64,000 nucleotides of DNA, taken from IMG/VR virus record IMGVR_UViG_3300025141_016157, positions 1 through 64,000 of that record. One strand, written 5' to 3'. Each line of letters begins with the position of its first letter. The stretch's first letter is position 1. Positions 47,296 through 60,694 of this stretch are shown here, piece after piece. Below the pieces are notes generated by a model. That model did not search any database and was not told where the DNA came from. It saw only the letters and a program-made list of their open reading frames with translations. The DNA comes from a virus. The position numbers and the translations under genes were made by a program.

Positions 47296-49788
47296 ATGTC
47301 AATTGTTAAAATACCACCAGAGAGAATTGAAAGATTTTCACTTACACTTCACCCAGAAATAGATTATCTAAGTTCTAGCATAGTTATAAGTTCGCTAGGC
47401 GTAAGACCGGGAACATCAGGATCAATTCCGCTTAGAGCTAGACCAAGCCCGCTTATAAAAGAGCTTGTTGCACCAGGTGTTGGTAGACAGGTAGGAAATG
47501 ACATTAATGCTGGGCCGTCTGCAAGACCATTTAACTCACTAGACTTTGCATCTCTAATAAGCCTTAAATACGCAGTTGATAAAACAGCTGAAGCCAACTT
47601 AGAAAACACAACTGTTGATGTAAAAAGCTATGTTGAAAATTATATGTCAGGTGTTAATCATTCGCCTCAGCCAATTTCAAGCACAAAGAAGATGTATATT
47701 ACAAGGTTCGACCCTCCGTTTTCTTTAAATGATGTAGCTGTAGAAAAGGCAGTAATAAGAAATAATCTAATGACATTTTATGAATCAAGGTATGATTTAT
47801 GCGAAATGTCTTACACAAATTATCATAATTTAAACTTTATGTCTGCCCCGAATGCACCTGGATCTCCTGAAGTTGGGTCTGTCGGTGCAATACCAAATGA
47901 CTCTGCTATAATATATCAAAACTTTGCAACTGGCTCTGGAATGCTTAGACCGTACTCACCAAGCGGATCATTCTCATTTGATTTTTATATAAATCCAAAA
48001 TATCATAATGAGCATCCTGATCTCGAATTCAAAGCTGGTACAATACTACACCTCTCTTCTACGTTTTGTGTATCCCTAGTCTCAGGAACAAGTAGAGATT
48101 CAAGCGGTCTTTTAGACGGCTATAGGTTGATGCTACAGCTTAGTCATAGTGCTGATATATCACCAAGCACTGTTGGGTATGGGTCAACATCTGTTTACCC
48201 AAGAGATTTAATTTTTCTTTCTGATGACAATTCTTTAAGTAGAAATAAGTGGCACCACTGCACAATTCGGTGGGGAACAGATATGCTAAACAATGGAACG
48301 GGAAGCATTATTATTGATAAAAAACCTCATGATTTTGCATGTCCTTCTGCATCCATTATGCCCCCTCCACATGTATCAAATGCTGCTCTTATGGTTGGAA
48401 ATTACTATGAAGGGTCAGATAATGAAGCAAAATTCTTTAACAAGTCTACTCTTTCAGAGGGTGTGTATCCAACATTAGATTTTGGAACTGGATTCAACGT
48501 TGATCCTGAGTGTATCCTTCGACACCCGCTAAATGCAGAAATACATGAAATAAAAATGTTCCAAAGATTTGTATCACTTAGTGAAATAGAATCATTTTCA
48601 AAAACATCACCCACTAATATGAATGATTTATCATTCTATGTACCACCAATGTTTCTCCCAGATACTAGAAAAAGAGAAATGCTTATAACACCTTTCCAGC
48701 AACAAGATACAAAATCAACTAAACCGTTCAATGAAATATTTTCGTTTGGTGTAGGCGGATTTATTATGAATCTTGAAAATCATGTTAAAGATTTTGCAAC
48801 AAGTAATAGGCCAAGATGTTTAAATTTAACAGCTTCTACGATAGATACAACAGTCCAGGATATTACTGCTACTGAATACTGTTATCATACAGGATCTATA
48901 AAAAAGAGAAATTTGACAATTTTACCATGCGATAATGGATATTTTAAACCAAATTATTCAATAATTGCAACTTCGTCAGATAATTCTCCATCAAGATCTA
49001 GAAAGCATGGGGGTTCAGATCTAAGTGTTATATCTTTGGAAAATATGGTTCCAGAGGGCAAGATTTTTAAAGGGCTTCCAACCACTACAGTTAGTGATAT
49101 GAATGCAGTTCTTGACGATGATGCATCAACACTTCCAGATGATCTAAGCGCAACATCAATAGCAGGTCTTGTTGCAGGTGTAACACCCGAGAGTATGGGT
49201 GGTGATTCTGGTCCAATACTTACAATTGCTCAGAGAACTAGAGATTTGTCATCAAATGAAATTTGCTTCTTTGACATTTCTAATATTTACTATGGCGATC
49301 AAATTCTAGAGGATACGCTTTATGTATCTGACCCGTCTTTAACTGGGTCAGACGGAAAAATAAAAATGACCCTTAGGGATAACGGAAGAGGGGGCATGTA
49401 CAGATGCGATTCAGATGGCCCTCACCCCAAGTGGTCAAATGTGGGAAATGCTCTTTACAAAGAAGGTGTTGCAATAATTAAATCTCCACCGCTTACTTTT
49501 TTTGGAAAAGATTGCTTTGAGATAAAAATGAAAGGAGAGCAGAATGTTCATGTTTCAATAGTAAATGTTCCTCTCGCGTCTGGAATGTTCAACTCTTCTA
49601 GCAATCCGTCATTTAAGATACTTTCAGCATCTGGATCCCCCTCTGATACAGGAAAATCTTTCGTGTATATTGATTCTTTAAATATTCACGATGAAAATCT
49701 GAATGTAATTGCAAGAACATCATTTGCGCAACCGATAAAGAAAAGAGTTGAAGATAACATGCTTATTAGATTTAAAATGGATTTCTAA
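47296..49788 (+). CDS. Virion protein with LamG-like domain
   Basis: 830 residues. Residues about 220-435 form a LamG/concanavalin-like sandwich: GSFSFDFYINPKYH, NKWHHCTIRWGTD, GSIIIDKKPHDF, LNAEIHEIKMFQRFVSLSEI. The C-terminus (IDSLNIHDENLNVIARTSFA, QPIKKR, MLIRFKMDF) repeats the C-terminal module of the upstream gene. The last base of the stop codon overlaps the next ATG (TAATG). A fourth LamG-type fold in the virion genes of this window. Confidence 0.71.
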   Translation: MSIVKIPPERIERFSLTLHPEIDYLSSSIVISSLGVRPGTSGSIPLRARPSPLIKELVAPGVGRQVGNDINAGPSARPFNSLDFASLISLKYAVDKTAEANLENTTVDVKSYVENYMSGVNHSPQPISSTKKMYITRFDPPFSLNDVAVEKAVIRNNLMTFYESRYDLCEMSYTNYHNLNFMSAPNAPGSPEVGSVGAIPNDSAIIYQNFATGSGMLRPYSPSGSFSFDFYINPKYHNEHPDLEFKAGTILHLSSTFCVSLVSGTSRDSSGLLDGYRLMLQLSHSADISPSTVGYGSTSVYPRDLIFLSDDNSLSRNKWHHCTIRWGTDMLNNGTGSIIIDKKPHDFACPSASIMPPPHVSNAALMVGNYYEGSDNEAKFFNKSTLSEGVYPTLDFGTGFNVDPECILRHPLNAEIHEIKMFQRFVSLSEIESFSKTSPTNMNDLSFYVPPMFLPDTRKREMLITPFQQQDTKSTKPFNEIFSFGVGGFIMNLENHVKDFATSNRPRCLNLTASTIDTTVQDITATEYCYHTGSIKKRNLTILPCDNGYFKPNYSIIATSSDNSPSRSRKHGGSDLSVISLENMVPEGKIFKGLPTTTVSDMNAVLDDDASTLPDDLSATSIAGLVAGVTPESMGGDSGPILTIAQRTRDLSSNEICFFDISNIYYGDQILEDTLYVSDPSLTGSDGKIKMTLRDNGRGGMYRCDSDGPHPKWSNVGNALYKEGVAIIKSPPLTFFGKDCFEIKMKGEQNVHVSIVNVPLASGMFNSSSNPSFKILSASGSPSDTGKSFVYIDSLNIHDENLNVIARTSFAQPIKKRVEDNMLIRFKMDF

Positions 49789-50333
49789 TGGTATCTCTTG
49801 GTCTTGATATTTCTACTTCTTGCACAGGGTGGTGCATACTTGACAAAGATGGTATAATCTTAGAGATAGGCTATATAGACTTGTCAAAAAAACAGGGCCT
49901 GTTTGAAAAAGCAAAGCATGTAAAGCGAAAAATATCCGAGATACACATTAATCATTGCGTTGAAAATATTTTTATTGAAGAAAATCTTCAGTCATTTAGA
50001 AGTGGATTTTCCTCTGCTAAGACAATATCAACTCTTGCAAAGTTCAATGGAATAGTTTCATTTATATGTTTTGAAGAATTTTCAACTACACCCATCTTCT
50101 TTAATGTAAATAGTGCTAGAAAGTCTCTCGGAATATCTATAAAGAGAAAAAAAGATGGGGGACTGCCTGTTAAAGAGCAGCTTTTAGAGTGGGCTCTAAA
50201 GAATGTAGAATATTCATGGCCTAGAAAAATATTAAAATCTGGGCCTAGAAAAGGCCAGAACGTTCCAGACCCTAGATCATATGATATGATTGATGCCTAT
50301 ATAGTCGCAAAAGCCGGCGCAGCAAATTTGTAA
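49788..50333 (+). CDS. RuvC-like Holliday junction nuclease
   Basis: 181 residues with an RNase H-type RuvC fold. MVSLGLDISTSCTGWCILD holds the first catalytic Asp (Asp7), IFIEEN the Glu (Glu64/65), and SYDMIDAYIVA the C-terminal Asp pair (Asp166, Asp169). Such phage enzymes resolve branched DNA before packaging, the job done by endonuclease VII (gp49) in T4. A Lys-rich loop (SIKRKKDGGLPVKEQL) may touch DNA. It overlaps the last virion gene by one base and precedes primase and recombination genes. Confidence 0.85.
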   Translation: MVSLGLDISTSCTGWCILDKDGIILEIGYIDLSKKQGLFEKAKHVKRKISEIHINHCVENIFIEENLQSFRSGFSSAKTISTLAKFNGIVSFICFEEFSTTPIFFNVNSARKSLGISIKRKKDGGLPVKEQLLEWALKNVEYSWPRKILKSGPRKGQNVPDPRSYDMIDAYIVAKAGAANL

Positions 50334-50372: not shown

Positions 50373-51326
50373 TTGAAATCAAATTTAGAAAAAATTCAAT
50401 TTATAAGAAGTGTTCTTGGTACAACAAAGGTTGCTCGTGACGGAGTTAATGTAGCAGTTAAGTGCCCAAGTTGCAATGAGAAGAAAGGTAAATTTTCTAT
50501 AAATATAGAAAACTGGATGTGTCATTGTTGGATATGTGGAACTAAGAGCAAAAGTTTATATTTTATACTAAAGAAGCATTGTAAAGATGATTCTTCGTTT
50601 AAATTTTTAAAAAATTTTGGACCACCAAAAGGCATAAAAAAAGAAGAAAAAAATATAGAAAGGTTTGTTGAAATACCTGACGGATTTATACTTCTTTCAA
50701 GGTACAGCGGAAAAGATCCCGATATCAGATCAGTAATTCAATATTGCAAAAAAAGAGGAATATCAGATCGAGACTTATGGTATTTTAGAATTGGAGCATC
50801 AAGTGATAAAATGCTGAGAAGAAGAGTTATTATTCCATCATTTGATAAAAAGGGAGATATCAATTATTTTGTATCAAGAACGATAGACTACAATGGATTT
50901 CCAAAGTATTCAAACTCTAAGGCGAAAAAGACAGAGATTATTTTTAATGAAATGAATATAGACTGGAAGCGAGAGGTTACTGTTGTTGAGGGACCGTTTG
51001 ATCTAATGAAAGTTAATGATAACTCAACATGTCTTCTAGGTTCAAAACTACCAAAATCTGGAAAACTTTTTGCAAAAATAGTTGAAAATAAGACACCTAT
51101 TCTTCTAGCGCTTGACAATGATATGTCGCATGAGTCTCATAGAATAGCAAAGCTTTTAAACTCTTATGGTGTAACAGTTAGAATTTTTAAAAATACTTCA
51201 AATACAGATGTTGGAGGAATGAGTAAGAAAATATTTAAAAATATGTCAATTTCATCACCTATCTGGTCTGAGGCTTCAATTTTAAAATTTAAAATAAATT
51301 CAATAAAGTCAGGATCTATTTTTTAG
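50373..51326 (+). CDS. gp61: DNA primase, gp61/DnaG-like
   Basis: 317 residues. An N-terminal zinc ribbon (CPSC at 31-34, CHCWIC with Cys52/Cys55) and a TOPRIM core (VVEGPFDLMKV with Glu206; ALDND with Asp248/Asp250) define a DnaG-type primase that lays RNA primers for lagging-strand synthesis. T4 gp61 is similar in size (342). TTG is the only plausible start; AAGAG lies upstream. The replicative helicase partner (gp41-like) is not in the window. It sits between the RuvC-like nuclease and the Mre11-Rad50 fusion. Confidence 0.88.
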   Translation: MKSNLEKIQFIRSVLGTTKVARDGVNVAVKCPSCNEKKGKFSINIENWMCHCWICGTKSKSLYFILKKHCKDDSSFKFLKNFGPPKGIKKEEKNIERFVEIPDGFILLSRYSGKDPDIRSVIQYCKKRGISDRDLWYFRIGASSDKMLRRRVIIPSFDKKGDINYFVSRTIDYNGFPKYSNSKAKKTEIIFNEMNIDWKREVTVVEGPFDLMKVNDNSTCLLGSKLPKSGKLFAKIVENKTPILLALDNDMSHESHRIAKLLNSYGVTVRIFKNTSNTDVGGMSKKIFKNMSISSPIWSEASILKFKINSIKSGSIF

Positions 51327-51356: not shown

Positions 51357-51713
51357 ATGAACAGAGAAGCGTTTAGAAAGATTATTCATGAAGAAATTAA
51401 GTCTGTTTTGCAAGATGATGCATTGTTTAAAAATAGGGATATTCCTGGAATTCTTGACGCTTACGAAACTTTTGACGACTCTGGTGATGGAAGAAATTTA
51501 AGCTACGGTAGCAATAAGTCAACAGATCATGAGGGAAGTATGACAAAGGGTGAGCTATATGACATATTTACAAAATCACAAAGCCTGTACGACATGTTAG
51601 AAGATAACGATGATCTACCTGAATGGGTTCAAAGTAAAGTTTCAAAAGCTTCAGATAGAATAGAGTCAGTTTACAGTTATCTTAAGAGAAAAATAAAGAC
51701 ACATGATTATTAA
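51357..51713 (+). CDS. Small acidic protein, possible head/core-associated
   Basis: 118 residues. It begins NREAFRKIIHEEIKSVLQDD, an amphipathic helix similar to the starts of small proteins near the prohead genes, then GSMTKGELYDIFTKSQSLYD and MLEDNDDLPEWVQSKVSKAS, a pattern I know from hypothetical proteins of T4-like marine phages. AAGGGG precedes the ATG. The short acidic, helical build would suit a prohead core or injected protein, but this is inferred. Confidence 0.66.
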   Translation: MNREAFRKIIHEEIKSVLQDDALFKNRDIPGILDAYETFDDSGDGRNLSYGSNKSTDHEGSMTKGELYDIFTKSQSLYDMLEDNDDLPEWVQSKVSKASDRIESVYSYLKRKIKTHDY

Positions 51714-51772: not shown

Positions 51773-54700
51773 ATGAAAATAGTCCATATAGCAGATGTTC
51801 ACTGGAGAGGTCTCTCTCGACATGAAGAATATACTGCATCATTTATTGAGTTTTTTAACCAGTGTAAAAATATTAATCCTGATGTCATATACGTCGGAGG
51901 CGATATAGTTCACTCTAAGACCCAGGGTATATCCCCTGAGTTAATTGATAGACTTAGCTGGTGGTTTACAAAGATGGCTGAGATATGTCCAACACATGTA
52001 ATTCTCGGTAATCACGATGGATTAATGAATAATAAAGATAGACAAGATGCAATTTCGCCAATTATTTCAGCGCTTGATAATCCCAATATATATCTATATA
52101 AAAAATCTGGCGTATATCCAACAGGTTTTGACGGATTTAACTGGTGTGTATTTTCATGCTTCGACGAAGAGGGTTGGCAAAGAGTTAGGCCAGTCCCTGG
52201 TGAGATAAATATAGCACTTTTTCATGGCGCTGTGTGGGGATCAAAGACTGATATAGACTGGGAGATTGAGGGTGAAGTTACAGTAGACTTATTCGACAAC
52301 TTTGAATTTGGAATGCTTGGTGATATTCATAGAAGACAATTTCTAAATAGTAAAAAATCAATAGCATACTGCGGAAGTACAATACAACAAAACTACGGTG
52401 AGGATAGCGGAAAAGGATTTCTTTTATGGGACATTAAGGATAAAGATGACTTCACTGTTAGCTTTCATGAAATACAGCATTGCTCTCCATTTGTAACAAT
52501 TGACTGGGGGGGATCTGTAAAAGATACGCTTTTAATAGCAAAGAAAGAAAAACCAGGGAGCAGGTTTAGAATAAAGTCAAAATCTCAAATAACCCAGGCG
52601 CATGCACAGGAAATATCAGCTAGACTTAGAGATAGCATGAATGCAGCTGAGACAGTTTTCAAAAGTGAGAATCAATTTGATACATCAGAATTTTTAACTA
52701 GAAATGATTCAAAGGGTTCAAATCTAAGAGAGGTAACGACTCACTATGATTTGTTTGGAGAATATTTAAAAAATTATAATTTAACGCAAGAGGAAAAAGA
52801 TGACATAAAAGATCTAATTGATAAATATTTTTTCTCTGCAACTTCTAGTGAAGAGGTTTTAAGAAACTCTCGATGGGAAATTGAGAAAATGAATTTTGAT
52901 AATGTTTTTTCCTATGATCAGGAAAACGTCATAGATTTTACAAAAAATACAGGAATTACCGGAATATTTGGAAAAAATACAAAGGGAAAATCATCTATTA
53001 TTGGTGCTTTAATGTACTGTCTTTTTAACACGACTGATAGAGGCCCTATAAAAAATCTTCATATTATCAATAGCAGAAAGAATTTTTGCAAATCATCTGT
53101 TGATATTAAGCTAAATGGTGAAATCTTTAGAGTTACAAGAGGAACAGTAAAACATACTACGAGAAAGGGTGAGACTTATGCATCTACATCCTTAGATCTT
53201 GAGAAAGTATCTAAAGATGGAACAGTTGAAAATCTAGCAGAGGAGCAAAGAAGAGAGACAGAAAAAGTCTTAAGAAGTCTAATTGGAACATCAGAAGACT
53301 TTCTAATGACTTCTCTTGCAAGTCAGGGTGGAATGAATAGATTTATAGGAGAAGGCTCAACATCTAGAAAGACTATACTGACAAAATTTTTAGATCTTGA
53401 AGTATTTGAAAAAATGAGTGATCTTTGTAAGCAAGACTATTCAGACCTTAGGGCAATTTCAAAATCAATAAAACAAGAAGACTGGGATAAAAAAATAGAT
53501 GAAGAAAATGAATGTCTAAAGGTTTCAAATGAATTATTGAATAGCGTAAAGTCAAAAATAAAGTCAGATAGAAAGCTTCTTCACAAGCTTATACAGAGAA
53601 AGAATAAGCTCGGGTACTCTATTGAAGATTCATATACACAAGGCCAAATAGAAGAAAAAAGATCAGAAGTTTCCCTTCTAAAGGAAGATCTATCAGGGAA
53701 AGAAAGTGAAATTGAAAAATTAAAAAAAGAAACATCAGAGAAAATCTCAAAGCTAGAAAAGATAAAAGACGTATGTGATAGCACATCAATTGATTCATTA
53801 AGGGAGCAAAGAGATACAAAAATAGCTTTGGAGAAAAATTTAATAAAGCTAAAAGCAATCCACGAGAAATCACTTATCAGGCTAGAAAAACTAAAAGAGT
53901 CTGCAGATATGTTAAATAAAGTTCCATGTGGAAGCTCTTATCCTGCATGTATGTTTATAAAATCATCTCACGAAGATAGAACTATGATAGATGATCAGGC
54001 TGAAATAGTCAATGCTTCTTACGAAAATCTAAGTTCATGTAATAAAAGTCTTGAAATTATCAAGAAGATAGACCCAGCTTCTAAAATTAAAAAATACGAT
54101 ATTCTATTTTTAAAATTAAAAGATCTTGAAGGTAAAATTAATATATCTAAAGAAAGATTTATCAATCTTGAAAATGGAAGGCTGTCACTTACATCATCAA
54201 TAGAGAAAGAATCTGCAGAGCTAAGGCGGATGGTGGTCCTATCAGAAGGCAACAGTAATTCTTCAGCATTAGACGTACAAGAAAAAATAAACAATATTCA
54301 AAAAGAAATAGAGGCACTAGAGAGGAATCAGTCAGAGATTATTGGAAACATTGCTGCAAGCAAGATTAACGTAGAAAGCCTTGTTGCTGATAGAGAAAAT
54401 CATGATTCAATAAAGCAACAAATGAGATCATATGATTTTTTTATTCAAGCAGTATCGAGAAAAGGAATACCATCAAGAATTATGATGTCAAAGCTGCCAG
54501 CAATAAATAATGAAATATTAAATATACTACAAGGTGTTGTTGACTTTACTGTATCCCTAGAAACTGATACAACAACTAGTGCTATGGATATCTATATTGA
54601 TTATGGTGATAGCAAGAGAATTATTGAGCTTGCTTCTGGTATGGAAAAAATGATTGCATCTTTAGCAATTAGAGTTGCTTTGATCAATACATCATCACTT

Positions 54701-54907
54701 ACAAAAACAAATATGATGATAATAGATGAAGGTTTTGGATCTCTTGATGCAACAAATCTTGAAGCTTGCACAAGATTGCTGGAATCTTTAAAAAAATGGT
54801 TTAGAAATATAATAGTTATATCACATGTAGACGCAGTAAAAGACTGCGTAGATAACTCTGTAGAGATAATAAAGAAAGGTAAGGATTCTCATGTCATGTT
54901 TACATAA
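51773..54907 (+). CDS. Mre11-Rad50 fusion (gp47-gp46 in one chain)
   Basis: 1044 residues combining two proteins that are separate in T4 (gp47, gp46) and in bacteria (SbcD, SbcC). Residues 1-350: Mre11 phosphoesterase with Asp8/His10 (IADVHW), Asp44 (GGDIVH), Asn80-His81-Asp82 (GNHDG), His151 and GDIH (Asp184, His186), all intact. From about 365: Rad50 ATPase with Walker A GKNTKGKSS (400-408), long coiled coil, a zinc-hook-like C-x6-C (Cys719, Cys726) at its centre, signature ASGMEKM (about 954) and Walker B MMIIDEGFGSLD (981-992). It resects double-strand ends for recombination-dependent replication. No frame break joins the halves. Confidence 0.93.
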   Translation: MKIVHIADVHWRGLSRHEEYTASFIEFFNQCKNINPDVIYVGGDIVHSKTQGISPELIDRLSWWFTKMAEICPTHVILGNHDGLMNNKDRQDAISPIISALDNPNIYLYKKSGVYPTGFDGFNWCVFSCFDEEGWQRVRPVPGEINIALFHGAVWGSKTDIDWEIEGEVTVDLFDNFEFGMLGDIHRRQFLNSKKSIAYCGSTIQQNYGEDSGKGFLLWDIKDKDDFTVSFHEIQHCSPFVTIDWGGSVKDTLLIAKKEKPGSRFRIKSKSQITQAHAQEISARLRDSMNAAETVFKSENQFDTSEFLTRNDSKGSNLREVTTHYDLFGEYLKNYNLTQEEKDDIKDLIDKYFFSATSSEEVLRNSRWEIEKMNFDNVFSYDQENVIDFTKNTGITGIFGKNTKGKSSIIGALMYCLFNTTDRGPIKNLHIINSRKNFCKSSVDIKLNGEIFRVTRGTVKHTTRKGETYASTSLDLEKVSKDGTVENLAEEQRRETEKVLRSLIGTSEDFLMTSLASQGGMNRFIGEGSTSRKTILTKFLDLEVFEKMSDLCKQDYSDLRAISKSIKQEDWDKKIDEENECLKVSNELLNSVKSKIKSDRKLLHKLIQRKNKLGYSIEDSYTQGQIEEKRSEVSLLKEDLSGKESEIEKLKKETSEKISKLEKIKDVCDSTSIDSLREQRDTKIALEKNLIKLKAIHEKSLIRLEKLKESADMLNKVPCGSSYPACMFIKSSHEDRTMIDDQAEIVNASYENLSSCNKSLEIIKKIDPASKIKKYDILFLKLKDLEGKINISKERFINLENGRLSLTSSIEKESAELRRMVVLSEGNSNSSALDVQEKINNIQKEIEALERNQSEIIGNIAASKINVESLVADRENHDSIKQQMRSYDFFIQAVSRKGIPSRIMMSKLPAINNEILNILQGVVDFTVSLETDTTTSAMDIYIDYGDSKRIIELASGMEKMIASLAIRVALINTSSLTKTNMMIIDEGFGSLDATNLEACTRLLESLKKWFRNIIVISHVDAVKDCVDNSVEIIKKGKDSHVMFT

Positions 54908-55139
54908 CACAAAGGGATTTTTTTGCGAAGTATGCGGATATCTCTCTTTGACATCAATGGATCACAGGTCAAAAATTTCAATAGGTGCTTGCAGGGGATG
55001 TGAGCTAAAGTTTTTTGAGCCAAATGTGGAAAAATGGAAAAACGGATGGCGACCAAAAAAGAGAGAGATAAACTCTTTTAATAAAGAGAATCAAAAAAGT
55101 GTCTATTCGATTTTGTCGGAAATAAATAATTACATCTAA
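54891..55139 (+). CDS. Small zinc-finger protein
   Basis: 82 residues. CEVC and CRGC pairs (C-x2-C...C-x2-C, FFCEVCGYLSL...IGACRGCELKF) suggest one zinc ribbon. The C-terminal half is basic (KWKNGWRPKKREI). The ATG overlaps the end of the fusion gene by 17 bases. It may bind DNA or assist recombination or packaging; no known family. Confidence 0.68.
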   Translation: MSCLHNTKGFFCEVCGYLSLTSMDHRSKISIGACRGCELKFFEPNVEKWKNGWRPKKREINSFNKENQKSVYSILSEINNYI

Positions 55140-55151
55140 AGGATTACAAAT

Positions 55152-55538
55152 ATGCTTACATCACAAGAAATTGACTGTCTGGGACAATTAACAAATAATA
55201 CATGGGGCTATCCCGGAGGAATGAATAGCAAAGTACCAACTGCTGCTATAAATGTATCTCTTCAGGGAGATATAATGATCTGTACATATAGTACAATTGT
55301 AAATCTCATGAGTGATAGAAATCTAAGGGATCAGTCAAAAGGTTTTGAAGAAGAATCTGTTAAAATAGTTGCAGAATATATAAAAGAGCTAAAGAAAGGA
55401 TTTAAGAAAAAATCAGAAAGATCTTTAAAGCTAAAAGAAACAGACACTAGAGATTCAATAGAAATTATTACAGCATCTCCTTTCTCTCCTAAGAGAACTG
55501 CATACTATAGGAGATTTACAACATTTAAAGTTGATTAA
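55152..55538 (+). CDS. Conserved-type hypothetical protein upstream of terminase
   Basis: 128 residues. A strand part (TAAINVSLQGDIMICTYSTI) is followed by a helix (GFEEESVKIVAEYIKELKKG), a basic segment and a last strand with SPFSPKRTAYYRRFTTFKV. I recall this pattern from hypothetical proteins of other myophages. It lies directly upstream of the terminase large subunit, where a small terminase (gp16) might be expected, but there is no clear helix-turn-helix, so I do not assign it. Confidence 0.7.
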   Translation: MLTSQEIDCLGQLTNNTWGYPGGMNSKVPTAAINVSLQGDIMICTYSTIVNLMSDRNLRDQSKGFEEESVKIVAEYIKELKKGFKKKSERSLKLKETDTRDSIEIITASPFSPKRTAYYRRFTTFKVD

Positions 55539-55539
55539 T

Positions 55540-57168
55540 ATGGCACCACCTAAAAAAAGTAGACAGGTACAAGAAATAATCAAGTGTGGAAAAGATCCTT
55601 CATATTTCTTTAACAATTACGTAAAAATTCAACACCCTGTTCGCGGATTAATAAAGTTTGATACATTTGAGTTTCAAGATAGCTGTGTTGAAACATTTTC
55701 TGAAGAAAGATTTTCAATAGTTTTAAAATCAAGACAGCTAGGCCTCTCTACACTTGTTGCAGCCTATTCCCTGTGGATGGCTCTATATCAGAGAGATAAA
55801 AATATTCTTGTAATTGCTACAAAGCTTACTGTTGCACAAAATTTTATTACAAAAGTAAAGACTATGCTGAGATCTCTTCCGCCATGGGTTGTCTTGCCTG
55901 AGCTTGTTGCAAACAATAAGCAATTATTGCAATTTAGTAATGGATCAACAGTAAAGGCAATTCCGACTTCTGATGATGCTGGAAGATCAGAGGCACTTAG
56001 CCTGCTTATCGTTGACGAAGCAGCGTTTGTTAAGAACTTTGACTCATTGTGGATGGGACTATATCCTACAATTTCAACTGGGGGAAGGGTTATAATACTT
56101 TCAACACCAAACGGTGTAGGTGGGCAATACCACAAGCTCTATACAGATGCAGAAGCAGGTTTAAATGAGTTTAAATCAATAAAGCTTCCATGGGATGTTC
56201 ACCCAGAAAGAGATGATGAGTGGTTTGAAGAAACTACAAAGAATCTATCAGATAGACAAATTGCCCAGGAGTATCTCTGTGACTTCTCTGCCTCTGGCGA
56301 AACCTTTCTATCAAAGAACGACCTAGAGTATATCAGACAGTCTGCCAGAGCTCCTATTGAAAGGTCTGGACCATCATCGTGTGTATGGACTTGGAAATAC
56401 CCACTTTCTGAGCATGAGTATATTATTTCTGCAGATGTTTCAAGGGGAGATTCTCGAGATTATTCAACATTTCATGTCATAGACATTAATGAGAGTGAGT
56501 GTGTTGCAGAATACAAGGGGAAGATACCCCCTGATAGATTTGGTGAGTTATTAGCAGAATATGGAAAAAAATATAATAACGCATTAGTCTGCCCGGAAAA
56601 TAATTCATACGGGTATGCGACAATTTTAAAATTAAAGGAAATTCAATATCCCAATTTGTATTTTAAGAGAAGAAAGGCTGTTTTTATAGGCGATTATATT
56701 CCTGACTCAAACCCAGATCTAGCTGGATTTACAACTAGCGGAAGAACAAGATCACTAATTTTAACAAAGCTTGAAGAAGTTTTAAGAAATAAAATGGTAA
56801 AAATCTATAGCACGAGATTTTACGAAGAGTTAAAAACTTTTATATGGATAGGTAGCAAAGCACAGGGAATGAAAGGTCACAATGATGATCTTGTCATGAG
56901 TATGGCAATTGGTGTCTGGCTTTTTGATGCTGCTGACGGATATAGTAAATCAAGTAGAGATGTAAACAATGCAATGCTAAAAGCAATGTCAGTTACGAGA
57001 AATCCATACGAAGATTTGCCAGACGCAATACTTGAAGGAAGACCTCATAACAACCCAGGAAGTGAAAGAAAAAATGTAGATCCGTCAAATCCTGTAAAAA
57101 GAGGTATTCACAGTTCGGATATAAAGAATAAAATAAAGATACTTAATGACTGGAAATGGATTTTATAG
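55540..57168 (+). CDS. gp17: Terminase large subunit, gp17-like
   Basis: 542 residues. The packaging motor: an ATPase half with a Walker A of the deviant type KSRQLGLST (63-71; the Lys sits at the front instead of in GKT), Walker B LLIVDEAAF (about 155-163) and the coupling STPNG; and a C-terminal RNase H-type nuclease with SADVSRGDSRDYS, CPENNSYG and GHNDDLVMS holding the acidic residues. The deviant Walker A is common in myophage terminases. ATG 55540 follows the previous stop by one base; an upstream TTG 55531 is less likely. Followed by the portal gene as in T4. Confidence 0.95.
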   Translation: MAPPKKSRQVQEIIKCGKDPSYFFNNYVKIQHPVRGLIKFDTFEFQDSCVETFSEERFSIVLKSRQLGLSTLVAAYSLWMALYQRDKNILVIATKLTVAQNFITKVKTMLRSLPPWVVLPELVANNKQLLQFSNGSTVKAIPTSDDAGRSEALSLLIVDEAAFVKNFDSLWMGLYPTISTGGRVIILSTPNGVGGQYHKLYTDAEAGLNEFKSIKLPWDVHPERDDEWFEETTKNLSDRQIAQEYLCDFSASGETFLSKNDLEYIRQSARAPIERSGPSSCVWTWKYPLSEHEYIISADVSRGDSRDYSTFHVIDINESECVAEYKGKIPPDRFGELLAEYGKKYNNALVCPENNSYGYATILKLKEIQYPNLYFKRRKAVFIGDYIPDSNPDLAGFTTSGRTRSLILTKLEEVLRNKMVKIYSTRFYEELKTFIWIGSKAQGMKGHNDDLVMSMAIGVWLFDAADGYSKSSRDVNNAMLKAMSVTRNPYEDLPDAILEGRPHNNPGSERKNVDPSNPVKRGIHSSDIKNKIKILNDWKWIL

Positions 57169-57179
57169 GTTAGAAAATT

Positions 57180-59222
57180 ATGGCAGAAGAACCAGCAACA
57201 TCACTGTTTAGAAGACTTACAACACTTTTTAGAAGTGGGCCAGTAATCAAGAGAAAGGTTAGGAACCTTGATTCTTCGATGAAAACATCGTCTGCATTTG
57301 AACTCTTTAGAAAAAACCAGAGTCACGTCTACAGTAGTGCAATGAGTGCGTATGGCACATACGATAGAATGGCAAGGTATTCAGATTTTAGTGAGATGGA
57401 GTATACACCTGAAATTTCAAGTGCACTAGATATATACTCTGAGGAAACAGTTGCAGCAGATGAGCACGGAAGGGTTCTACACGTATATTCTGAAAATCAC
57501 ACGATTGAAAAACTTTTAAATGATTTATTTTATGATACTCTTAATGTTGAGTTTAATTTAACTGCATGGGCAAGAAACTTATGCAAATATGGAGACTTTT
57601 TTCTTTTTAATGATGTATCTCCTGAGCATGGAGTTATCAGTGCATTTCCTATACCTGTTAATGAAATAGAGCGTGAAGAGGGCTATGATCCAGAAGATCC
57701 CATGGCTGTAAGGTTTAGATGGGTTACACAGGGTAATCAAGTTCTTGAAAATTGGCAAATTGCACACATGAGAGTTTTGGGAAATGATGCATTTTTGCCG
57801 TATGGGTCTTCTGTTCTAGAGGCAGCAAGAAGAATTTGGAGACAGCTTATCCTTGTTGAGGACGCAATGCTTGTATATAGAATAGTAAGGTCTCCTGAAA
57901 GAAGGGTATTTTATATAGACGTTGGAAATGTCCCCCCGGAAGACATTCCAAATTATATGGAGCAGGTTCAATCAACTTTGAAAAAAGCACAAGTTGTCGA
58001 TAAGACAACAGGAAGAGTTGACTTAAGATATAATCCGCTATCTGTAGACGAAGATTACTACCTTCCTGTTCGAGGAAGTGATTCAGGAACGAAAATAGAC
58101 ACACTTGCCGGTGGACAAAATGCAACAGCAATTGAAGATGTCGAATATATACAGAAAAAATTATTTGCTGCTTTAAAAATTCCAAAAGCATACCTCGGAT
58201 ATGACGAAGGTCTTGGGGCAAAGGCAACACTATCTCAGGAAGATATTAGATTTTCTAGAACAATTGCTAGAATACAGCGAACTGTAATTGCTGAATTAAA
58301 TAAAATGGCAATTATTCATCTTTATTGTAATGGTTTCGAGGGTGAAGATTTACTTGATTTTGATCTAAAGCTATCCAATCCGTCTACAATTGCACAGCAG
58401 CAAAAGCTTGAACTATATAGAACAAGATTTGATGTTGCCACAACAGCAAACAATATAGAAGGTCTCGTAAGTAGGGACTGGGTGAGAAAAAGAATATTCA
58501 ACATGACAGATGATCAAATAGACGATCTTAAGATCCAAAGAGAGACAGATAAGCTAGATGATCTTAGAATAGAATCTGTTACACTGCCGCAGACTGAAGG
58601 GGCCGGTGAAGAACCTGAAGTAGATACTTCACTGCCCGGTGGTCCACCAGGAGGGGTAGAAATTGAGGATCTTGCAGACTCTGACAATAACAAGACTCTT
58701 CCGATTCTAGCGGAACCATCGTTCGTTGCAATGAGCATGAACGATGATAACTCTCCTATCAAGGCTCAGGAAAAAGTTGACAATATTTCGAAAATTTTAA
58801 ATTCAACCTTGTCAGAAGAAACATCGATTGTAGAAAAAGCAAATGATAAAGGTTATGACAATAGAAAAAGAAGAAAGAGAAATTCTCTAAATACAAATCA
58901 TGCAGCTATGACAATGCACGACCATGACGATACCGATGATTCACTTTCAGGAGATCCAGTAAAAGATATGAGGGAAAAAGAAGCTTCAAAGAGAAAGGAA
59001 GATGCAAATCCTGCAAGTCTTATAAATAGAGAGCTAAAAAATGCATCTAGCCTCCCTTCTGTATTTGAATCAGATTCAGCTTATATGTCAGCTTATTTTA
59101 ATGATAAGGTAAATGTTCAAAATAGAATGTCAGATAGATTAAGATCTACATTAAAATCCCTTGAGAGAAACATACATATTAAAAAGAAAAAGACATTATT
59201 GTCTGAAGAAAATGAGGTGTAA
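57180..59222 (+). CDS. gp20: Portal protein, gp20-like
   Basis: 680 residues. The dodecameric portal at the capsid vertex, through which the terminase pumps DNA. Typical blocks are YTPEISSALDIYSEETVAAD, ENWQIAHMRVLGNDAFLPYG, SSVLEAARRIWRQLILVEDA, VYRIVRSPERRVFYIDVG, KIPKAYLGYDEGLGAKATLS and EDIRFSRTIARIQRTVIAEL. T4 gp20 has 524 residues; the extra length lies in a C-terminal, polar, partly disordered extension (from about residue 480, rich in Pro, Gly, Asp, Ser and Lys) that may contact the prohead core. Position after the terminase supports it. Confidence 0.93.
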   Translation: MAEEPATSLFRRLTTLFRSGPVIKRKVRNLDSSMKTSSAFELFRKNQSHVYSSAMSAYGTYDRMARYSDFSEMEYTPEISSALDIYSEETVAADEHGRVLHVYSENHTIEKLLNDLFYDTLNVEFNLTAWARNLCKYGDFFLFNDVSPEHGVISAFPIPVNEIEREEGYDPEDPMAVRFRWVTQGNQVLENWQIAHMRVLGNDAFLPYGSSVLEAARRIWRQLILVEDAMLVYRIVRSPERRVFYIDVGNVPPEDIPNYMEQVQSTLKKAQVVDKTTGRVDLRYNPLSVDEDYYLPVRGSDSGTKIDTLAGGQNATAIEDVEYIQKKLFAALKIPKAYLGYDEGLGAKATLSQEDIRFSRTIARIQRTVIAELNKMAIIHLYCNGFEGEDLLDFDLKLSNPSTIAQQQKLELYRTRFDVATTANNIEGLVSRDWVRKRIFNMTDDQIDDLKIQRETDKLDDLRIESVTLPQTEGAGEEPEVDTSLPGGPPGGVEIEDLADSDNNKTLPILAEPSFVAMSMNDDNSPIKAQEKVDNISKILNSTLSEETSIVEKANDKGYDNRKRRKRNSLNTNHAAMTMHDHDDTDDSLSGDPVKDMREKEASKRKEDANPASLINRELKNASSLPSVFESDSAYMSAYFNDKVNVQNRMSDRLRSTLKSLERNIHIKKKKTLLSEENEV

Positions 59223-59225
59223 CTC

Positions 59226-60080
59226 GTGACAAAATCTCACAACAAGAAAAGAAATGTAGGTGTGGTATACGAGCTTCTTTTAAGAAGGGTCTCTGAGTGC
59301 TTAGTAAGTGAAAATAAAAAAGAAGCACAAGAGACTTTAGATATTCTTTCAAGGAAGTTTAAAAAAGGGACAAATCTTTACAAAGAGTTTAGGCTTTTCA
59401 GAGCACTCGCAAAATCACAAGTATCTGATAGTGAAACTGCAAGGGCAATATTAAGAGAAGCAAAGGGTGCAGCAATAAGAACTGACCTAAAATCTCTTGA
59501 AAAAGAAAAGTCTTCTTTAATTAGAGAGATGAATTATAAATTAAAAGATTCAAATCTATATAGAAGGTATGTTCCAGATTATAAGACGCTTGCAACGATT
59601 CAGACACTGCTAAATGACTGGCGAGACCAAGATGACACAAATATAGAAAGAATAGCACTTTATGAATCAAAAGTAGTAGATCATCTTTTGAAAGAAAAAG
59701 ATAGTCTTGACATTGAAAATCAAACAAATCCTGATATTGATAGTCTTGTTGTAAAGATAATGACAGAGAAAATTAATAAGAAGTATGATAAACAATTCAA
59801 CTCTGACCAAAGAGAGATTTTAAAGCTTTATGCATTTTCCGGTACAGATGACGACACGTCAAATAAAAAATTATCTACATGTCTTGAAGAGATTTCTAAA
59901 AAATCGCTTAGAGATATTGTAAGGCTTAAAAAGAGCACATCAAATGAAACAATTATAGAAAAGATATCAAGTGTTAAGAATCAAATACTCTTAGAATCAA
60001 AAAGAGACATAGATGATAAAAAAATAGTTAGATTTTTAACGCTAATAGATCTTTGCAAAGAAATAAGGGAGTCTGTATAA
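59226..60080 (+). CDS. Helical protein between portal and protease (prohead core candidate)
   Basis: 284 residues, GTG start behind GAGGTG. Almost entirely charged helix: NVGVVYELLLRRVSECLVSE, KKEAQETLDILSRKFKKGTN, KSLEKEKSSLIREMNYKLKD. T4 places the small core proteins gp67 and gp68 here, between gp20 and gp21; this protein is larger and not visibly related. Likely a core or scaffold component. Its stop overlaps the protease ATG by one base (TAATG). Confidence 0.7.
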   Translation: MTKSHNKKRNVGVVYELLLRRVSECLVSENKKEAQETLDILSRKFKKGTNLYKEFRLFRALAKSQVSDSETARAILREAKGAAIRTDLKSLEKEKSSLIREMNYKLKDSNLYRRYVPDYKTLATIQTLLNDWRDQDDTNIERIALYESKVVDHLLKEKDSLDIENQTNPDIDSLVVKIMTEKINKKYDKQFNSDQREILKLYAFSGTDDDTSNKKLSTCLEEISKKSLRDIVRLKKSTSNETIIEKISSVKNQILLESKRDIDDKKIVRFLTLIDLCKEIRESV

Positions 60081-60694
60081 TGTCTAATTCAATGAAACTT
60101 TTAACAGAGTGGATGCCTTTAAAGGTTGATAAGAGTATTATCTCTGAATCAAAGAGGGAGCACGGCGGAAAATTATTCTTAAAGGGAGTTTTGCAAAGAT
60201 GTGATACTCTAAACCAGAATGGAAGAATTTATCCAAAGTCTGTTCTTGAAAGAGAAATGATAAACTATCAAAAGTTTATAAAAGAAAACAGAGCGCTTGG
60301 TGAGTGTGACCATCCAGATACAAGCGTAATTGAATTGAAAAATGTCTCACACATTGTCCGAGAGGCACATCTTAATGGTGACGATGTTGTTGGAACTATA
60401 GAGCTTTTGGACACACCTGCAGGAAAAATATTACAAAGTCTAGTTGAATCTGGTGTTACCCTGGGGATAAGCTCACGAGGCGTAGGATCTACTATAAATG
60501 AAAGCGGAAATCAGATCGTTCAAGACGACTTTCAGCTAATTTGCTTTGATATGGTGTCAGAACCCTCTACACCCGGAGCATTCATGCTTAACGAGGGGAA
60601 AAACATATCCAGGAAAGATCTAGACAAACACTTTAACTCTTCTGACAAAATAGATAGAATTTTTAATGAAATATTGATGTGGGAAAATGAGTAG
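60080..60694 (+). CDS. gp21: Prohead core protease, gp21-like
   Basis: 204 residues. Serine protease that degrades the scaffold and trims capsid proteins during maturation. Core motifs: NQNGRIYPKSVLEREMINYQ, GECDHPDTS with catalytic His78, VSHIVREAHLNGDDVVGTIE and GISSRGVGS with catalytic Ser (131 or 132), then FDMVSEPSTPGAFM. The size agrees with T4 gp21 (212). The ATG at 60080 follows AAGGGAG; an in-frame TTG at 60053 would give nine extra residues but lacks a ribosome binding site. Confidence 0.93.
   Translation: MSNSMKLLTEWMPLKVDKSIISESKREHGGKLFLKGVLQRCDTLNQNGRIYPKSVLEREMINYQKFIKENRALGECDHPDTSVIELKNVSHIVREAHLNGDDVVGTIELLDTPAGKILQSLVESGVTLGISSRGVGSTINESGNQIVQDDFQLICFDMVSEPSTPGAFMLNEGKNISRKDLDKHFNSSDKIDRIFNEILMWENE

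Follow-up and report, generated by a model that had tools for sequence, protein, structure and literature searches.

A predicted single-chain Mre11-Rad50 protein of Far-T4-like phages and its re-split relatives

The stretch of marine phage DNA analysed here (the window) comprises the first 64 kb (64,000 nucleotides) of a virus record of 160,346 bases (IMGVR_UViG_3300025141_016157). At positions 51773-54907 on the plus strand it carries a single frame of 1044 codons that runs uninterrupted from ATG to stop and encodes a 1044-aa fusion of Mre11 with Rad50 (SbcD-SbcC). The initial annotation had placed nuclease and ATPase in one frame of this length, as is confirmed by the open frame, and had taken the gene for a genuine phage fusion of Mre11 (SbcD/gp47) with Rad50 (SbcC/gp46), a view upheld by the ORF, the domain matches and the conserved motifs. 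Mre11-Rad50 is a universal DNA-break-processing machine, and in the window its gene lies among the following neighbours.

49788..50333, plus strand: RuvC-like Holliday junction resolvase (phrog_159, 6.6e-15)
50373..51326, plus strand: DnaG-type primase, zinc ribbon and catalytic core (phrog_47, 6.4e-39; PF08275, 4.9e-6)
51357..51713, plus strand: 118-aa ORF with no assigned function, detected in some relatives only, mostly closer ones
54891..55139, plus strand: 82-aa Cys-rich (zinc-ribbon-like) ORF overlapping the fusion stop, recurrent beside the fusion in relatives
55152..55538, plus strand: 128-aa ORF between the fusion and the terminase, recurrent in relatives
55531..57168, plus strand: terminase large subunit (phrog_2, 5.5e-48)
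57180..59222, plus strand: portal protein, gp20-like (phrog_213, 3.9e-76)
60053-60694: prohead protease

The fusion itself is divided into the following parts, with residues numbered as in the window protein.

51773..52543, plus strand: Mre11/SbcD phosphoesterase (nuclease) domain, residues 1-257 (PF00149, 2e-12; residues invariant in 79/79 sequences; model)
52562..52666, plus strand: Mre11 capping region, residues 264-298, strand-helix-strand (AlphaFold2 model)
52733..52843, plus strand: helix-loop-helix (HLH), the Rad50-binding domain of Mre11, residues 321-357 (model)
52844..52870, plus strand: linker from the HLH to Rad50 beta-1, residues 358-366 (model and 79-sequence alignment)
52871..53398, plus strand: Rad50/SbcC ATPase head N-lobe, residues 367-542 (W368; Walker A GKNTKGKS, 400-407; Q-loop Q518)
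53399..54454, plus strand: short antiparallel coiled coil, arms 543-715 and 730-894, apex 716-729 (model helices)
53918..53959, plus strand: hook-like apex PCGSSYPAC, C719-x6-C726 (C719 in 78/79, C726 in 79/79 sequences)
54467..54904, plus strand: Rad50/SbcC ATPase head C-lobe, residues 899-1044 (SGME, 955-958; Walker B MMIIDE; D992; H1018)

The AlphaFold2 model of a single chain (mean pLDDT 86.3, pTM 0.63) predicts the order nuclease, cap, HLH, 9-aa linker, Rad50 head and short coiled coil. Both the capping domain (strands 264-269 and 293-298, helix 275-289) and a C-terminal HLH of Mre11 type (helices 321-332 and 339-357; 37 aa long in 70 of the 79 aligned sequences) are predicted, and the loop between them (299-320) is modelled with low confidence. 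When the model was compared with PDB structures, head complexes of Mre11-Rad50/SbcCD came out on top and SbcD chains were matched separately (7dog, 6s6v). Among BFVD models, long proteins of Tupanvirus, Harvfovirus, Yasminevirus and others ranked first and the Tenacibaculum phages pT24 and PTm1 were also found, these matches being aligned across nuclease and ATPase together. A further BFVD entry, the 1009-aa 'recombination exonuclease' of Listeria phage LMTA-57 (A0A068CB47), spanned the greater part of the fusion in alignment; the remaining Listeria phage entries listed each match a single half, and this one could be a joined annotation.

The nuclease half is recognized by Pfam Metallophos (PF00149, residues 1-186, 2e-12, 48.4 bits against a cut-off of 21.5) and the ATPase half by PHROG 77 (SbcC-like, residues 293-1039, 1.2e-49), with additional matches under the cut-off to Pfam SMC_N (370-1034) and SbcC_Walker_B (951-1004). 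The curated NCBIfam models for SbcD (TIGR00619, 35.1 bits against 77.65) and SbcC (TIGR00618, 92.4 bits against 478.5) do not reach threshold, and scores so far under the cut-offs mark the protein as a distant member of the family, neither an SbcD equivalog nor a cellular SbcC. The motifs DxH (8, 10), GDIVH (43-47), GNHD (79-82), H151 and GDIH (183-186) make up the nuclease site, of which D8, H10, D44, N80, H81, H151 and H186 are present in 79/79 sequences. The ATPase head is split around the coiled coil and has Walker A, Q-loop, signature, Walker B, D-loop and H-loop, with G405-K406-S407, Q518, S955-G956-E958, D985-E986 and D992 kept in all 79 sequences and H1018 in 78. The expectation that every catalytic motif would be intact was thus correct for the presence of the nuclease and ATPase motifs but not for motif V, which reads GDxH in place of GHxH: in 79/79 sequences Asp 184 replaces one of the usual metal-ligand histidines, and motif II, GDxxH, likewise has a His (H47) for the third Asp in 79/79. 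The phosphoesterase fold and the metal-binding motifs are otherwise present; to judge from the sequences, the substitution in motif V could alter or weaken nuclease activity.

At the apex of the coiled coil the CxxC zinc hook is absent from the window protein, which has C-x6-C there instead, and this form (PCGxxFPxC) is kept across the Far-T4-like clade. CxxC is found in T4, E. coli and four of the relatives (L013, L015, L016 and L107); most of the remoter fused phage proteins, like most of the split ones examined, carry it too, and the split Rad50 of a Moorella phage has C-x7-C.

The joint between the two halves is short. From the HLH to Rad50 beta-1 there are 7-11 residues across the 79 sequences (9 in the window), according to the alignment and the model, rather than the 15-40 first estimated, a longer count that probably includes the HLH; the accompanying statement that the C-terminal region of Mre11 adjoins the Rad50 head holds good, as the HLH lies right before Rad50. 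This length is in line with Thermotoga maritima, where the distance of about 28 A from the Mre11 C-terminus to the Rad50 N-terminus corresponds to 9-12 residues (PMC3175470). A strict constraint on linker length was considered as a sign of selected geometry and was dropped, since the other loops of the protein, used as a control, vary as little as the linker (loop-length standard deviation 0.60). It is conceivable that the fusion is made as one chain and works as two proteins after proteolytic processing or through an internal start, given that phages use prohead proteases, one of which is encoded here, and that the low-confidence loop 299-320 could be accessible. Against this, the linker is short with the HLH immediately before Rad50, ATG with a ribosome-binding-site-like sequence occurs at the joint in 0/79 sequences, and any start codon with such a site occurs there in only three of the 79. 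An internal start giving free Rad50 is rejected on this absence of a conserved one, and the two-protein reading as a whole is considered very improbable.

A search of viral contigs with the window protein returned 11 loci, each matching both halves, and a profile search returned at least 585 contigs that were confirmed; the analysis took the best 80 of them, under a ranking that favours full-length matches. Across the 102 related loci analysed, 95 have one frame through both halves, and the remaining seven run off a contig end, are interrupted at another place or are nuclease-only (L109); no break at the Mre11/Rad50 joint was found among the relatives examined. Because profile ranking favours full matches, a scan for the motif IQQNYGE, which does not select for fusion, was also run: among the matches listed, 80 loci comprised 56 with both parts in one frame, eight truncated where the stretch ends and 16 with a stop inside Mre11 (one of them, L134, apparently through a change of frame in a variable loop), and none of the 80 had a full Mre11 followed by a stop, or a stop between HLH and Rad50. 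The fused relatives come from many metagenomes, at roughly 29-68% identity, and from isolate genomes that include Mel-JY01 and Tenacibaculum, Chryseobacterium and Sphingomonas phages. The initial annotation had named a stop or frameshift overlooked at the joint as a finding that would undo it. Such an accidental joining of two adjacent genes might be suspected in view of T4 and T5-like phages, in which both genes are close by and in some cases (PR1, D254) overlap by a few bases; it is refuted by the same frame recurring in 95/102 loci of such varied origin, and the chance of an artefact is negligible. The fusion is widespread: it is the standard form in the Far-T4-like phages sampled from a large uncultured T4-like group, and it occurs besides in jumbo phages of Bacteroidota and in huge phages. 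It is moreover the sole Mre11-Rad50 locus in 11/11 long Far-T4-like phage records, no second, separate Mre11/Rad50 locus being present in these 11 fused records. A plasmid collection gave partial Rad50-like matches only. Fused genes were also seen on contigs binned into bacterial or archaeal MAGs (L102-L107), most of them with terminase, portal or primase neighbours, from which it appears that these bins probably include phage contigs.

The order RuvC-like resolvase, primase, fusion, two small ORFs, terminase and portal forms a conserved cassette. The resolvase is present in 55 of the 61 loci having at least 3.5 kb of upstream sequence, the primase lies upstream of the fusion in 72/75 loci, and the terminase lies downstream in 75/78, at a distance of 584-776 nt in 71 of those; the 82-aa Cys-rich ORF gave nothing in PHROG and, in Pfam, a match below threshold only. 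RecA is encoded at 93730-94533 in the window's own genome and also in nine of ten other long IMG/VR fused records. The nearest isolates for terminase and portal by tblastn are Microcystis phage Mel-JY01 and Flavobacterium phage immuto, with Rhodothermus phage RM378 next for the portal, which suggests a Far-T4-like phage (PMC4360716). No fusion gene was detectable in immuto or RM378, and the paper on Far-T4 phages mentions none of gp46, gp47, SbcC or a fusion (Roux, 2015; PMC4360716).

The locus is best read as a Far-T4-like phage gene for an Mre11-Rad50 (SbcCD) enzyme made as a single chain, homodimeric and serving recombination-dependent replication and the processing of DNA ends and branches, a reading to which a probability of roughly 0.8 is given. 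The fused frame and its conservation, the catalytic residues, the predicted domain order, the sole locus, the cassette and the grouping of fused against split forms (below) are direct results; we infer docking in cis and, from T4 gp46/47 and SbcCD, the homodimer stoichiometry, enzymatic activity and a role in replication or packaging. Two fusion chains would probably form a homodimer equivalent to M2R2, the ABC heads would dimerize on ATP, and the HLH of each chain would dock in cis on its own Rad50 coiled-coil root. ATP hydrolysis would then expose the nuclease sites to DNA ends and, together with the phage RecA, RuvC-like resolvase and primase, the enzyme would most likely make 3' ends for recombination-dependent replication; branched DNA might also be trimmed or resolved ahead of packaging, a link suggested by gene order alone. 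A protein acting mainly in host-DNA degradation or as a counter-defence nuclease is an unlikely alternative: T4 gp46/47 are annotated as also taking part in host DNA degradation, and PADLOC LmuB (Lamassu) matches the Rad50 part at 2.5e-26, but the resolvase/primase/terminase cassette and the RecA elsewhere point to recombination and replication, and the LmuB match is limited to the Rad50-type ATPase, as expected of any relative. The LmuB match was rejected as a family placement on the same ground, that it spans the ATPase only. If the preferred single-chain reading is correct, a natural enzyme with a fixed 1:1 stoichiometry would be a useful tool for studying how Mre11-Rad50 couples ATP hydrolysis to cutting.

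Fusions of this kind are not new, contrary to what was initially implied, as they were described in Mimivirus (R555), Bacillus phage 0305phi8-36 and plasmids (Yoshida, Claverie and Ogata, 2011; PMC3175470). The R555-like metagenomic genes of that study were inferred to be viral, possibly from aquatic phages, and lay on scaffolds that also carried primase and endonuclease genes, and R555 itself was noted to have His for the third Asp of GDxxD and Asp for PfMre11 His206 (PMC3175470). H47 and D184 of the window family (79/79) are these same two substitutions, and by comparison with the published description of R555 the window gene fits the R555-type family, including both unusual active-site letters. 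The two also have in common Mre11 first and then Rad50, a retained HLH and a short linker, and the fold search, a measure of fold similarity only, ranks long proteins of Mimivirus-like viruses (e.g., Tupanvirus) first. Unlike R555, the window protein is from a phage, has 1044 aa against 1351, has a shorter coiled coil and is encoded next to primase, resolvase and terminase. Large T4-like phages of aquatic habitats, as yet uncultured, may be home to many of the 'R555-like' sequences found in metagenomes in 2011. T4 gp47/gp46, a pair that recombination and host DNA degradation both require, and E. coli SbcD/SbcC share the domain set and catalytic motifs but are encoded by two separate genes and have GHxH as motif V and a CxxC hook, and the T4 genes lie in the early replication region away from the terminase, whereas the window fusion lies beside it. 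Single-chain Mre11-Rad50 proteins on the same side of the tree are encoded by the Bacteroidota jumbo phages pT24, PTm1, PTm5 and MA9V-1, Sphingomonas phage PAU, the huge phages LR756501 and LR756508, and Mel-JY01; the jumbo forms differ in being longer (about 1300 aa) and having CxxC hooks, and their annotations go no further than metallo-phosphoesterase, DNA repair, exonuclease or AAA protein. The kind of protein has thus been known since 2011, and what is new is its status as sole locus, the conserved cassette, the grouping of fused against split forms in the tree, and a re-split clade.

In a tree of concatenated Mre11 and Rad50-head sequences, which is unrooted, has long outgroup branches and leaves out giant-virus and cellular fused sequences, all 23 fused phage proteins (including those of Bacteroidota jumbo phages, huge phages and Mel-JY01) fall on one side of a branch and 10 split pairs on the other, with support of 100/99. 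When five re-split forms were added, this branch stayed at 100/99 and the re-split clade (100/100) fell among the fused forms. The simplest reading of these sequences is probably one ancient fusion event followed by a split at a different place, and the tree suggests that fusion happened fewer times among phages than under the recurrent creation put forward in 2011, a proposal that reaches beyond the phages sampled here. The fuller history, in which an ancient phage fusion founded a single-chain Mre11-Rad50 lineage with kin in Mimivirus-like viruses and one branch was re-split inside Mre11, is offered tentatively, at a little short of even odds.

Six re-split loci were found.

L131, 450-4000
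L150, 2-5305
L153, 4998-9637
L168, 10443-14508
L170, 1821-5272
L173, 9018-12472

Each has a nuclease-only ORF of about 260-280 aa and a later ORF of about 780-810 aa that starts with the capping and HLH region and runs on into Rad50, the first ORF of L131 and the second of L150 being incomplete in the sequence at hand. The gap between the two ORFs measures 0.2-2.9 kb and holds a conserved unrelated ORF, and primase or RuvC neighbours recur at some of these loci. A model of the second ORF of L168 (pLDDT 73.3, five sequences) has strand-helix-strand, two helices, linker and first Rad50 strand in the same order as the fusion. On that history this partition, nuclease alone and cap-HLH-Rad50, would suggest from sequence comparison that selection acts to preserve the covalent link between HLH and Rad50, and the re-split relatives amount to a natural experiment on which joint matters. 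No description of such a partition was found in the open-licence papers searched, and later accounts may have been missed. Introns were rejected as the source of the interrupted relatives, as there is no Rfam match at the gathering threshold; they are also disfavoured by the unrelated conserved ORF between the halves in the re-split clade.

Right after the nuclease-only ORF, in the six loci and in L139, lies a small conserved ORF with the motif 'xxFCxxNxIxD...GFxIxKYG', and upstream of the start of the second ORF an MDLF/MNLF-like N-terminal peptide is seen in L131, L150, L153 and L168 that resembles a sliding-clamp-binding motif by eye. In LR756508, a 484-kb phage (L015, 2944-7169), a 305-aa ORF interrupts the fused gene after GDIHKRQ; it has several Cys pairs and looks, by eye, like a homing endonuclease. 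The frame change of L134 (reverse strand), near 2977 of the reverse complement, lies in the same variable loop after GDIH, and its two ORFs share a few bases.
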